Source of the DNA: Cliona cf. orientalis | Lineage: Eukaryota; Porifera; Demospongiae; Clionaida; Clionaidae | Direction of reading: 5' to 3' | DNA: 64,000 nucleotides | Assembly (NCBI GenBank): GCA_963930775.1 | Contig: OZ005689.1 | Coordinates: forward strand, 6,115,569 to 6,179,568 | Part shown: positions 33,034 to 39,892 of the stretch, piece by piece | Layout of the letters: every line of letters starts with the position of its first letter | Position numbering within the stretch: the first letter of the stretch is position 1 | The notes under the pieces: model-generated | What the model was told of the DNA's origin: nothing | What the model saw: only the letters and a program-made list of their open reading frames with translations | Databases searched by the model: none | Position numbers and translations under genes: made by a program

Positions 33034-33316
33034 GATACAGTAGTTAGCTAGCTACATGAGACCTCTCAACATAAGTTAGGTAGAGTAGCTTGCTTGTATG
33101 CACAAGATAGATCTAGTCACTTGCAGAATGAAGGCTGTAGTTTGTGATGGGCTTATTTTAACCAGGAAACGGAAAACGGAAACGGAAGAGCTGAAATTGG
33201 GAAATGGTCGTCAACATTAGTTGCGCTAATGGCTTCTTTTGCGCATGCGCGATCTGTGTGGCGCTAGAGATATTATAGCACATTAAATTTTATCAGAATC
33301 GAGCTAGGCTACATGC
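33034..33316. promoter_or_regulatory. SRCR gene 5' region up to the transposon
   Basis: Holds the presumed SRCR promoter. A purine-rich GGAAACGGAAAACGGAAACGG stretch (about 33168-33190) and a TGCGCATGCGC palindrome (33241) are the only notable motifs. The 9-bp transposon target duplication GCTACATGC occupies 33308-33316. Confidence 0.4.
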
Positions 33317-33411
33317 TAGCCTCGTCCCCAGGCCCCCTCTCGATCTCCCAGCTTTTAATGTTGCACGCAAAAAGCGGGAGGAGAGGAGGGCCTGGTACGC
33401 GACGTCACGCA
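33317..33411 (+). repeat. left TIR of the helicase transposon
   Basis: Base-for-base inverted copy of 39495-39589 over 95 bp. It contains an internal sub-palindrome in which CCCAGGCCC near the tip pairs with GAGGGCCTGG near the base, so a single TIR can fold on itself. Confidence 0.95.
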
Positions 33412-33819
33412 TGAAACGTCATCAATAAATGAACGTGGGCGGGGCGGCGCAGCGCTAACCACAAAAATGCATTCCAAATGACGCCACCCACGTACTTTTG
33501 GATGTTGCCGCGTGTGGATTTACCGGGAAGATCGCGGCATTTGGCGGTACTGGATGATCGACTCAAAGGCCTGTGTCCTTCGCTCAAAAGAAGATACTAA
33601 TCGAGGTAAGTAGTACTACTAATGTAAATAACGGGTCCAGTGATGATGAGACTTGGTAAAATGAGCGCTACTACTGTGTAGCGCTCGCGCTATGTTGGTC
33701 CATTTGGCTTGGCATGCTTGGGGGCCCGGCTAAATCACGTGTGTACCTGATCAGCTGGTATGATCGAAGGTTTTTGGCGGTGAAATTGAATTTTCGAATT
33801 TGCTCCTGTCAGCTGCAAG

Positions 33820-35833
33820 ATGTCCAGTTACAAAGTATTGTGCAGTGATCAGTGCCAAGCATTTGCGAAGGGGCTGGTACCCCAGCTCAGGACAAGTGGT
33901 GGTTTGTCCAATGCATGTATTGCTCAAAATAAATTGACAGATGCCCTACGCTCTTACTATGGTTTTGCAAGTTTTCGTCCCGGTCAGCTTGAAGCTCTCC
34001 TTCCTGTGGCCCATGGTCGGGATACGTTCGTGCGTATGCCCACTGGAGGAGGAAAGACCCTCTGCATGTTCCTTGTGCCATTATCTATTAGCTGTGATGC
34101 CATGGGCATTATTATCAGCCCTTTGGTCGGTTTGATACAGCAGCAGGTATGTACATTTTTGTTGGTTTTATTTCCATTTTAGTATTTCTAGTTGTATAGA
34201 TTGGTCAGTTGAAAGCTATCGGCGTTTCAGCTACTCACGCAGTCACTGTAGGTCAGATTGCCGACATTGTTTCTGGAAAATTCCGATTTGGTTAGATTCC
34301 TTATGACTATTATATCATCACCGCTTTATTGGTGAAATTTGTTTTAAGTTTTCATGTCGCCAGAAACAGCAGTAGCTGCTGAGTGGAGGAAAGTGTTTAC
34401 AAATGCCTATGTGAAGCTCAAGCTCACGCTCATTGCCGTAGACGAAGCTCACTGTATTACAGAGTGGTCAGCATCATGCATGTGTACTTATGGCTTATAT
34501 TTGTGTATGTTATGTTGTATACATGTGTATAGGGGTAAGGAATTCAGAAAAGATTTTAAGCGTATTGGCGAGATTCGAGCATTAGTGGATGTTCCCTTCA
34601 TGGCTCTGACTGCTTCAGCTCCTCCTCAAGTTCAGGCCGACATTACCAATACACTTCACCTTTGCTCTCCCATAACTGTTTCCTGTTGCCTTGATAGACC
34701 TAACGTATTTATATCAGCTTGCCCTATAGCCTCTTTGAGTGTAAGTAATATTTGTTTATCATTGCACCATAGCTATTATTCAATTTGCATAATTATAGAG
34801 AGATTTGCATGGGTTTTCGGCCAGTTTAAAGAGTCCTCCTCCTAGTATTCCCAAGACTATCTTATATGTTCCCAGCAAAAACACAGCTTGCAAAGTGTAT
34901 CATTTCTTAAAAGCGGTATCTGCCAACAAGCAATGTGTTGGAGTGTATCATGCTGACCTCACCTCATCAACAAGACATTCAACGTACCTGGAGTTTTCAA
35001 GTAGCACGTCCAAGTTGCGATGTCTTGTGGCTACCATTGCATTTGGGATGGTATGCACACACATAATATATATGTAGTATTGAATCGATTTTGTTTATTT
35101 CTCATAATTGCGTACTTCATAGGGGATGGACATTCCAGACGTTGACCTTGTAGTAGTTTATGGAACACCTAGTACAGTTGCTCAGCTTTATCAGGTATAT
35201 GGTACACCTTAATCTTTGGTTTGGTACAGCTGAATAAGCCTCTCTCTTTCATGGTAGCTTTTTGGTCGCGCTGGACGAAATGGCTCTGTTGCTCGGGCTC
35301 ATTTGTTTCACACCGTCAGGAAGCATCCCGAGAGAGATGCAGGCCTTCAAAAGTTTATTCAAGGTGGTGAAAATTGCAGGAGGAGATGTTTGCTTGAGTG
35401 TCTTGGAGATCCATCCACACTCAGCAGCTCTGGATTCGAGTGTTGTGATTGTTGTTGCAAATCAGCACTCACACTCCCTTTGTATGCTAAACTAGCTATA
35501 TTAGATCCAGGAGTGGCAACCAGAAGGAAGCGCAAGGTGGAAGTAAGAACCGTAGATAAAGTTGGTTTGAGAGCAAAATTGATTCAAGCCCGACAGGATT
35601 TTATTGACCAAAGGGATGATTTTTATATGGTTGGTGTGAATTTTGTCTGTTCAGATAGTGTAATAGATAAGTTATGTGCAGAAGCAAAGTATATTAAAGT
35701 TATTGATGATATACCGGCAGAACTTTTTGGTATCTGGCCTGATCTCAAGATCACCTTTTTTCAAATTATTTGTGATAATTGTTTATTAGTTTCGTGTACA
35801 AACAATTCAAGGAAAAAGAGACGATTATGTTAG
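33820..35833 (+). CDS. RecQ-like DNA helicase of the transposon
   Basis: RecQ enzymes unwind DNA 3'-5' using ATP. Seven exons give 547 codons plus stop: 33820-34146, 34200-34290, 34349-34466, 34533-34740, 34799-35050, 35123-35194 and 35258-35833. RecQ motifs appear in order: motif 0 FRPGQLEAL (52-60), Walker A MPTGGGKT (73-80), motif Ia SPLVGLIQQQ (100-109), SPE (143-145), Walker B DEAHCITEW (171-179), ALTASAPP, LDRPNVF, motif V VATIAFGMGMDIPDVDLVV and motif VI QLFGRAGRNG. A Cys-rich segment (RRRCLLECLG then GFECCDCC) matches the RecQ zinc-binding subdomain. No winged-helix RQC or HRDC domain follows. Instead there is a roughly 110-residue basic tail ending RKKRRLC, a possible nuclear signal. 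The intron 3 donor is the weak GTCAGC. It is convergent with the DUF6589-like gene. Residence between TIRs argues for a role in transposition, not host repair. Confidence 0.9.
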
Positions 35834-35932
35834 TTGCTTTTGTATACTGTCTATATGTAGTGTTTGTGAATACATATGAATTGAGTGTATATATGTGGAT
35901 GGACCATTGTCTCTATCATCACTGGACTCAAG

Positions 35933-38778
35933 TCAAATGACGTCTGATAGTTCGTAATTAAGGTCGGCTAATTCTGTATCGTTTTCTTCCAACTGCAGAT
36001 CATCAATACTGCTTGTTGACAGGAGTGTGTCTGCTACCCAAGACGTGGTGGCAATCTTCTTGTGACCAGCATTGGTTGGATCGGTGAATGGCGGAGAGTC
36101 TCTTTCGGTATTTTCAGAAGTCACCATGCTCTCTAGAAGGGAGGTTGTCAGCTTACAGATGTCCCTTTCAGCATCTCGAATGGTGTGAGCTGTCGACTGT
36201 CGTGTTTTGAACTCGCGGTCCACCTTTTTAGAGGCATCCATGAGGAAGAGTGCACACAGAGATACATCTTCGGCGTGAGTTTGTGTAACATTACCTCCTC
36301 CTCCTCTCATAGTCTCCTTCAAAACACTAGAATGTACAAGTATAATTGTTGTAATAATTTGGTATGGAAATTTTGTGCATAATTTATGTGGTGCATGTAT
36401 GTGTATTGACTTACAGGTTGTAGTGTTCAACCATTTGGTCGATTGGCTTTCCCCTACCAGGTTTTCCTTCCATGTTGACCGTGCGATTATGAGTAGCGAT
36501 GTATGCCAAGTGACGTGGCAGGTCAGCACACAGATTTGCTATCATGTGGACACACTCGGCTGCGTAGTTTTTACGTCCAGTTCCAATCAACCTGGGTAAC
36601 CACAATTTCCACGATCTCACGATGTGTGCACCATATTCGTATCTGATGGCATTCCTGAGATCAATATACAGGAAGGAAGTGTGGAGAAAGGATCGATGCA
36701 TTGCGTACACTGGATCACTGGAGGTGGCCGGCATTATCGTCTCGGGGAGCAGCCTCTCTGCTGTCGCCTGCAACCACTGTAGAGATTTGTCGTGTGGGAT
36801 GACATCAGATGTTGATTGCAGGTTCAGACAGGTGCAGATCCTTGCCGCAAGGTGAGCTTTGAAGGTATGAACTAAGAATTCATCTCCTGTGCTAAACACC
36901 TTCACCCCTTTGTCAACTTGCTTGCGGTTAATTTTATCCCTCATGCTGCTAAGTGATCCATGATTACCATGTGGCTCCCAAAACATAAGAAAAATCACCC
37001 TCAAGCACTCCCACAAAAAATGAAAATCACCTACAAGCCAAAATAGGAATTAGAAAATTAAAATACGTACATGTATTGATCAATGTATACATGTACATGT
37101 AGCTTACCAGGAACTTCATTAGCCCACACAAGTTTATCCTTGGGGTCTGGCTCTGGGGACCTCCATGATTTACTTCCTCTGATCACCTTGCATGTTAGTT
37201 GATCCCCGACCACTATCTGCAGAGGATAATTGATTCATTGCACGATTCCATGTATGTGTACACATGTGCTTGTACAACAGTAACACGTGTGCATCTTAGA
37301 GTGAGCATAGTATCAATTAAAATTGGATTATGAGGGTGCATGGGTACTTGTGTAGTAAGCACCTGATGGTCACCAGAAAGAGCTGCATCACTGTATAACT
37401 GTGCAAGGATGTCAATCGTTTCTGTTTTGTATTTTTCATCCTTCAGCAACAGTTTCATTGGTACTACCTCAGACTTCTGCACTGGGTGGATAGGCTCTAC
37501 AGGAGGAATAAACTCTTCCAGATCTTGAAGGTTGGAGAATGTCTTGACCAGGAATTCCATGATGAACTGGATTGCACGTTGCTTCAGCACTCGAGCATCA
37601 CTCTGACTTGGTGAAACATCCTCAATGGTAATTGACTGACGTGATCGTTGAGGAGTTTTGTCAGACCAGTCAAATTCAAAATCTGGGATGTACCTGATCC
37701 TAATGGCCAACCGTGAGGTCACGTTCATCATGGACGAGTGATAATCTGTTGTCAAGTAATAAGGTACATGTAATAAATTTTTAATGGTGTATGATGTTCA
37801 ATAACATGTACATGTAAAAGACTTGCCTTCACGTTCATGGCGAATGTGTTGTTTGAGATTGAGATTATCGTAAGCCCAAATCCAGTGACCACTTCTTATA
37901 GTTTCTAAGTATCTTGCTTCGTTTGTGAGAGCTTTCAAATACTTCCAAGCAGTAGTATATGATGCACACACCCCCATGTGATTTAAGACTGCAATTGCCT
38001 GAGTTAAGTACATATACACGCACAGTATTATGCATAATACTAGTGAATAAATCATGTTGTGAATATATACCTGTCTGTTTGTAGATCGTGCAATCAACAT
38101 AAAAGCAAGGAGAAGCTGAACACCAAGTACCTGAACTGATCTGCACTTCAGTAGAGCTGTCGCTGATGTCATCACTCGAAGTTTACTGAGTTGTGCAAGA
38201 TCGTCTTCCTCATCGTGCCGGCTAGTCTGGCCCAGAACATTCAACAATTCATACACGTCGGGAGCATGGGTAACTAACTCCGTGACTATCGCATCAACTG
38301 ACAGTTCGTCAAAGTGACTGATTGTGTTAGGACCATGGAAAATGCTGTGATGTGGGTGCAGTAGTTGACTCATTTGAGTATCTAGCTTTTGAGTGGAGAT
38401 GAGTGACACCTGCTGCTGTTCTAACTCATGGACTCGCTTTTGTAGAAGATGAATCTGACGTTGAAGAAGAGTGATTTGTTCCGAGGAACTGTCTGCAGTG
38501 CCAGCAACGCTGGTAGATGTGGTACCCTCATCATAAATCCTATCCATTCCAAACACGTACACATGTCGTGCCTTCCCCAAATGCTTGCTTTCGGTGTTCG
38601 GAAATTGTACACCAATTGCACGGGATAATGACTGTGTAGAGATGGATGATGATGGACAGTGGCGTTGAACGTCATCCTTCACATGAGAAAATTTAATTTT
38701 TTTTGCATCAGGTCCACTCGCTGGAGCTTCCCTGTACAATCGCTTGAGAAGTCTTCTTAAATCTGCTTCAGTTTCCAT
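35933..38778 (-). CDS. DUF6589-like protein, putative transposase
   Basis: Six exons give 793 codons plus stop: 38778-38071, 37998-37827, 37745-37363, 37216-37108, 37030-36415 and 36326-35933. Intron 2 uses a GC donor (GAAG then GCAAGT), the rest GT. The N-terminal region has basic stretches and a coiled coil (about 100-123, QITLLQRQIHLLQKRVHELE). Later blocks IWAYDNLNLKQHIRHEREG, YHSSMMNVTSRLAIRI, VVGDQLTCKVIRG (D426), WANEVPGDFHFLWECLRVI (D459, E465) and GDEFLVHTFKAHLAARIC resemble DUF6589 proteins as I remember them. Acidic residues in GDQLT and GDFHF are candidates for an RNase-H-fold DDE active site; this is inference. The true start is ATG 38778; an upstream TTG in frame is not used. 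Sharing a TIR-bounded element with a helicase supports a transposase role. Confidence 0.82.
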
Positions 38779-39286
38779 CCTTAGTGCTTGCAAATGCTTG
38801 TCTCTTTTTATACTTTCTTGTGTGTTTATTTTTAGATTACTTGCAATTGTACTATTCTACTAAAAATAGAGCTTCACCATGATGTCATAAAAAATTTTGG
38901 TGCTGTGAGAGTTCATGTTGTGCATGCTAACTGTGCAGACTAATTTGTGGTTGCAGGTAGGAACCCTATCCCACGATGATCAACGACATCATGGCTGTTT
39001 CTAAATTTAACTCGTGACCTGGAAGTATATTCTGTGCAAGTGGTATGCGTGACTCATTAGGTTTAGTGTACTGGCCGTGCTTTATATAGAAAACAATTGC
39101 AAAAAGCTACAAGAAAGTACCATGGAAGCTTAGAGGTAAGCAAGGGCTACTTGTTTACTATCCAGTAATCTTTAGCTGATGGTTGTACTTTCGGTAGGTA
39201 GCGGTATAACGCTACCGCGGATAGCTGCTTATCTCGCAGTGTGCGGTTAGGCAAACTCGTGGGCAGGACAGTCCCTCGTATCTTAC

Positions 39287-39589
39287 ACTGCCCACGCTCA
39301 ATTAAATGGATTCTACCTTGAATCTACCCTTGGGATCACGTGCGTGACGTCGCGTACCAGGCCCTCCTCTAGCTCTCCTCCCGCTTTTTGCGTGCAACAT
39401 TAAAAGCTGGGAGATCGAGAGGGGGCCTGGGGACGAGGCTACTGCCCACGCTCAATTAAATGGATTCTACCTTGAATCTACCCTTGGGATCACGTGCGTG
39501 ACGTCGCGTACCAGGCCCTCCTCTCCTCCCGCTTTTTGCGTGCAACATTAAAAGCTGGGAGATCGAGAGGGGGCCTGGGGACGAGGCTA
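39287..39589. repeat. tandemly duplicated right end of the transposon
   Basis: A 154-bp unit starting ACTGCCCACGCTCAATTAAA is present at 39287-39440 and again from 39441. Each copy ends with the TIR. The inner TIR has a 4-bp CTAG insertion relative to the outer one. The outer copy is the one matched by the left TIR over 95 bp and bordered by the target duplication. Confidence 0.9.
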
Positions 39590-39892
39590 GCTACATGCAT
39601 TCTAATAACGTCGTAACACAGAATCAAGTGTGCACACAAGTAAAATATACATGCATCCCAAGGAACTTGGCATTCTAGATACGTCCACTCATTTATTGCG
39701 CACCCTAAATTTTTGTCGCTAGATGAAACCCTGAATAGGTATACTATCAAGGGCTTATAGACTCGGATCTAAAAGCCCTTACTTAAATCTATACGTCACA
39801 TATATAGCCATAGTCTTAATCAGGGATAAACACAGATTGAGTCAACACTCCAAGCGGCTTGTATTATTATAATAATGTTATTGTCAAAGCAA

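Follow-up and report, generated by a model that had tools for sequence, protein, structure and literature searches.

The window, a stretch of 64,000 nucleotides from the sponge Cliona cf. orientalis (contig OZ005689.1), contains a full-length, probably autonomous DNA transposon that in all likelihood belongs to the AcademH lineage of the Academ superfamily, as judged against the published description of AcademH. The transposon encodes a RecQ-core helicase and a DUF6589 protein between terminal inverted repeats (TIRs), is flanked by a 9-bp target site duplication (TSD), and is very probably a good example of this published lineage rather than a new kind of element.

Structure of the transposon

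In the window sequence, the transposon spans positions 33317..39589 (6,273 bp). Its TIRs, at 33317-33411 and 39495-39589, are perfect complements over 95 bp (97 bp with two flank bases added), and the 9-bp TSD GCTACATGC is exact on both flanks (33308-33316 and 39590-39598). Two intact spliced genes encoding proteins of 547 and 793 aa lie tail-to-tail between the TIRs. Both gene models were obtained by splicing according to GT-AG rules on DNA alone, and neither frame had an internal stop. The original prediction had described perfect 95-bp TIRs, an exact 9-bp TSD and spliced frames of 547 and 793 codons; the repeats and the duplication were recovered at the same positions, and splicing yielded the same frames. 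The features are as follows.

33308..33316, no strand: left copy of the TSD, GCTACATGC, from the sequence compared with the right flank
33317..33411, plus strand: left TIR, 95 bp, beginning TAGCCTCG; at least 58 matches in the host genome
33820..35833, plus strand: gene for a RecQ-core superfamily 2 helicase, 7 exons, 547 aa, from splicing, Pfam and solved relatives
35933..38778, minus strand: DUF6589 gene, probable DDE transposase, 6 exons, 793 aa; PF20231 at E 9e-59; conserved D280, D426 and E659
39287..39441, no strand: inner of two tandem copies of the right end, stopping exactly at a transposon terminus; 6 bp absent from the outer copy
39495..39589, minus strand: right TIR, 95 bp, complementary to the left TIR without mismatch
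39590..39598, no strand: right copy of the TSD, identical to the 9 bp of the left flank

The right end was doubled in tandem (39287-39441 and 39441-39589), each copy ending exactly at a transposon terminus; the original prediction had not mentioned this doubling. The 6 extra bp of the inner copy were also present, according to alignment lengths, in the right end of the copy designated C8, and the outer copy was 100% identical over 149 bp to the right end of the copy designated C18. Two variants of the element thus appear to have been joined, via template switching in repair or aberrant transposition.

Helicase and DUF6589 genes

The helicase gene consists of exons 33820-34146, 34200-34290, 34349-34466, 34533-34740, 34799-35050, 35123-35194 and 35258-35833 (with the stop). 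Its product matched the Pfam models DEAD (E 1.3e-18), Helicase_C (E 5e-17) and ResIII above the cut-off, and its best solved relatives were the RecQ core of WRN, bacterial RecQ and BLM. The original prediction called it a RecQ motor without RQC or HRDC domains; at E values up to 1, Pfam listed no model for RQC, HRDC or the RecQ zinc region, but a RecQ-like cysteine cluster (CRRRC...CCDCC) was visible in the protein by eye.

The DUF6589 gene consists of exons 38778-38071, 37998-37827 (followed by a GC donor), 37745-37363, 37216-37108, 37030-36415 and 36326-35933 (with the stop). It contains one GC-AG intron, and all other introns of both genes are GT-AG. Its product matched DUF6589 (PF20231), an uncharacterised family in Pfam, at E 9e-59 across 383 residues. 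Among 8,000 candidates scored from a large public collection of proteins, no relative of the 793-aa protein was detected at E 0.001, and the gene had no match in plasmids. A profile of four DUF6589 proteins gave 70 pattern matches in viral contigs and 62 in prokaryote genome contigs, none of which was confirmed. When this profile was compared with Pfam, only DUF6589 itself stood above chance, and 17 other families (best E 0.01) were each matched by one of the four members; six solved structures appeared up to E 10, the best of them an aldolase at E 0.011, taken as chance, and no family was found in NCBIfam. Neither Pfam nor NCBIfam nor the solved structures gave a match between DUF6589 and a known DDE family.

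Six residues (D280, D426, D459, H461, E659 and H660) were invariant in a four-sequence alignment with identities down to 24%. E659 and H660 were kept in 16 of 17 aligned carboxy-terminal sequences (F26 and F28 being nearly identical, L053 omitted, and L032, which is without that part, omitted as well); the exception was F33, whose TIR pair is the least alike among the F elements (93%). Among divergent paralogues, D280 was kept in 11 of 12, D426 in 9 of 12, D459 in 9 of 11 and E659 in 10 of 11, and some of the missing residues probably reflect the projection running into introns. E465 and E616 were kept in all 11 divergent paralogues, more often than E659, but were absent from L049, the most divergent sequence. 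D280 lies in the context WIWAYDN, E659 in DQMVEHYN, and D459 in a separate DxH motif. D280 and D426 each appear to come just after a short hydrophobic segment resembling a strand, and E659 appears to lie in a segment resembling a helix, an arrangement known from DDE enzymes. DUF6589 has the three conserved acidic residues (D, D, E) of DDE-type enzymes, and D280, D426 and E659 are its predicted catalytic triad, the choice of glutamate being a prediction in itself. The earlier suggestion of D426 and D459 as catalytic residues holds in part: D426 fits the second aspartate, and D280 and E659 fit better than D459 with its DxH motif. DUF6589 is probably the AcademH transposase.

We compared both genes with those of two other, close copies. 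For the helicase, dN/dS was 0.17 over 547 codons against the C18 copy, in which both frames are also open, and 0.14 over 543 codons, with 10 indel columns, against the C8 copy. For DUF6589, compared over 793 codons each time, it was 0.12 against the C18 copy and 0.13 against the C8 copy, the latter with a large insertion skipped. The C18 comparison showed neither stops nor indels in either gene. Therefore, with values of 0.12-0.17, both genes have been under selection against protein change. The element has probably been active recently.

Copies in the host genome

For the TIR, the host genome (217 Mb, 149 contigs) gave at least 58 matches when 40 of 201 candidates were scored. The 352-aa open frame with which the DUF6589 gene starts had 71 matches in this genome, at identities from 100% down to 21%. 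Twenty regions were fetched, picked by matches to the TIR or to the DUF6589 gene. Fifteen contained both genes, in a tail-to-tail arrangement in every case, three the helicase only, one DUF6589 only and one neither. The host copies support well that the TIRs and the genes travel together.

Both ends were located in 16 elements, namely those of 13 of the 20 regions (2-kb flanks being added for 11), the window copy, and the far more divergent L048 and L049, the two with wide flanks among six further regions, whose TSDs were read by eye. The other seven regions were not counted: one end of L019 lay outside the stretch, L020-L022 were chimeric, L023 had a TIR and neither gene, and no TIR pair was found in L026 and L034. 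An exact 9-bp TSD was present in 14 of the 16 elements, the others having an 8-bp TSD (F29) or none (F28), and such 9-bp duplications were present even where protein identity had dropped to about 25%. The element termini read TAGCCTCG, or TAGTCTCG in L048, and no motif shared among the TSDs was seen. As a chance control, the left end was slid by 1-40 bp in 14 elements; because none of the 1120 positions gave a nine-of-nine flank match, the 9-bp TSDs are not due to chance. No empty site was found across the join when the joined flanks were searched in the host genome (40 matches listed, 40 of 188 candidates scored); the matches listed corresponded to each flank on its own and to a repeat within the left one.

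Association of the helicase with DUF6589

A genome-wide search with the DUF6589 Pfam model gave at least 122 matches (102 of 338 candidates scored), merged into 101 loci, and a search for the helicase gave at least 142 matches (79 of 457 candidates scored), merged into 68 loci. Among the matches listed, 39 of the 101 DUF6589 loci lay within 6 kb of a helicase, always tail-to-tail and never in another arrangement, against 0.38 expected by chance; the figures were the same when only 73 of the 142 helicase matches were used. The remaining 62 loci had no helicase within 6 kb among the matches listed. These loci cannot be read as helicase-less, because one of them, C5:606215, proved to contain a helicase once its DNA was read. 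Conversely, 39 of the 68 helicase loci had PF20231 within 6 kb and 29 did not, again among the matches listed. Six of these 29 had a match to the 352-aa frame within 9 kb and 23 had neither; the 23 include L020-L022, which are chimeric, and RecQ genes with one long frame that seem to be of another kind.

DUF6589 was very abundant in the host, with at least 101 merged loci in strongly divergent lineages. Additionally, RecQ-type matches at 27-31% identity were noted at C4:3100147, C6:5103793, C10:1853736, C1:12449854 and C7:7150185, with no DUF6589 match within 6 kb. Each sits within one long open frame of 1310-1358 aa, and three of these frames, on different contigs, are 1329 aa long. These five loci perhaps represent another repeated, helicase-bearing element.

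Classification and alternative explanations

According to PMC10045372, the Academ superfamily includes a helicase-encoding lineage, AcademH, with TSDs of 9 or 10 bp, and a nuclease-encoding lineage, AcademX, with TSDs of 3 or 4 bp. In PMC10799480, the domains given for the helicases of AcademH, KolobokH or Helitron include DEAD and Helicase_C, both of which were matched here. The element described here shares with AcademH the helicase beside a transposase, the TSD length and the TIRs, and no difference was found among the features that could be compared through the citing papers by which AcademH is known here. AcademH is by far the best fit because the helicase, the TIRs and the TSD length match and KolobokH, the other RecQ-bearing lineage encountered, does not fit. 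The original prediction was very probably wrong in stating that no superfamily with this make-up had been described, although its two-gene, helicase-bearing, TIR-flanked transposon is well supported by the copies in the host genome.

Two other known groups were rejected. The nuclease of AcademX is of the XPG type. AcademX would share its superfamily with the present element, if the Academ assignment is right, and differs in having that nuclease in place of a helicase and in its shorter TSDs; the XPG_I model gave four matches in the host genome, none near a listed DUF6589 position, and the TSD length was wrong. Helitrons also carry a helicase, of the Pif1 type, but have neither TIR nor TSD, both of which are present here, and are described with an HUH nuclease.

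AcademH is reportedly found in animals and fungi, going by the title of a 2020 paper by Kojima in Mob DNA (11:15). This breadth, and the published AcademH make-up in which helicase, TIRs and 9-bp TSDs occur together, argue against a separate unnamed superfamily, in which DUF6589 would be a DDE transposase unrelated to Academ, the RecQ helicase would have been acquired independently, and the 9-bp TSDs would be coincidental. DUF6589 does lack a match to any named transposase family in Pfam, NCBIfam and solved structures, and a search on the name DUF6589 found no paper among those covered, which would suit such a superfamily; we nevertheless consider it improbable. It is just as doubtful that DUF6589 defines a cut-and-paste superfamily apart from Academ, with the RecQ helicase as an obligate partner of its DDE transposase.

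The target duplication of Kolobok is TTAA, whereas the TSDs found here are 9 bp long and without a shared motif, and an element of the KolobokH type, with a Kolobok transposase and a RecQ helicase, was rejected on this ground as very improbable. KolobokH, as described in PMC9587614, resembles the present element in being a DDE transposase element that encodes a RecQ helicase, located on the complementary strand in one red-algal Kolobok, but it has a Kolobok transposase and is reported only from fungi. Even less credible is the chance trapping of two genes between unrelated TIRs with no mobile unit involved. TIR-only and chimeric derivatives do exist and would speak for such trapping; the gene pair, however, recurs in one and the same orientation within TSD-flanked TIRs at many unlinked sites, and constraint acts on each of the two genes. 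Chance assembly was therefore rejected as contradicted by the copies.

Proposed mechanism and significance

Under the AcademH assignment, the DUF6589 protein, as the probable DDE transposase, would bind the TIRs of about 95 bp that begin TAGCCTCG, excise the element and insert it into target DNA at positions staggered by 9 bp, and host repair of the resulting gaps would generate the 9-bp TSD. The RecQ-core helicase would serve the element as an accessory enzyme whose most likely task is to unwind DNA at the ends, at the target or in a repair intermediate, which would make transposition helicase-assisted, as suggested earlier. The analysis shows the element's anatomy, its TSD length, the joint movement of TIRs and genes and the constraint on both genes, and from these we infer catalysis, the step at which the helicase acts, and cut-and-paste rather than copy-out. 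The AcademH-type copy in the window appears intact and is constrained, and it has many divergent relatives in a highly contiguous genome, which makes it a suitable subject for studies of the helicase's part in transposition. Additionally, Pfam DUF6589 is suggested as the AcademH transposase, with D280, D426 and E659 as named candidate residues.

Derivative elements

Three chimeric derivatives with one TIR (L020, L021 and L022 at C1:28.5, 22.5 and 32.1 Mb, respectively) share the first ~1.14 kb of the element at 92-94% identity. The shared part comprises the left TIR and the 5' part of the helicase gene, and the remainder is other sequence common to the three. A further group (L054-L063) consists of TIR-only fold-back miniature elements of ~90-180 bp. 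Four of the ten miniature elements fetched had an exact 9-bp TSD, one had a TSD with two mismatches in 9, and in L058 a TSD was recognised by eye around a shortened left end.
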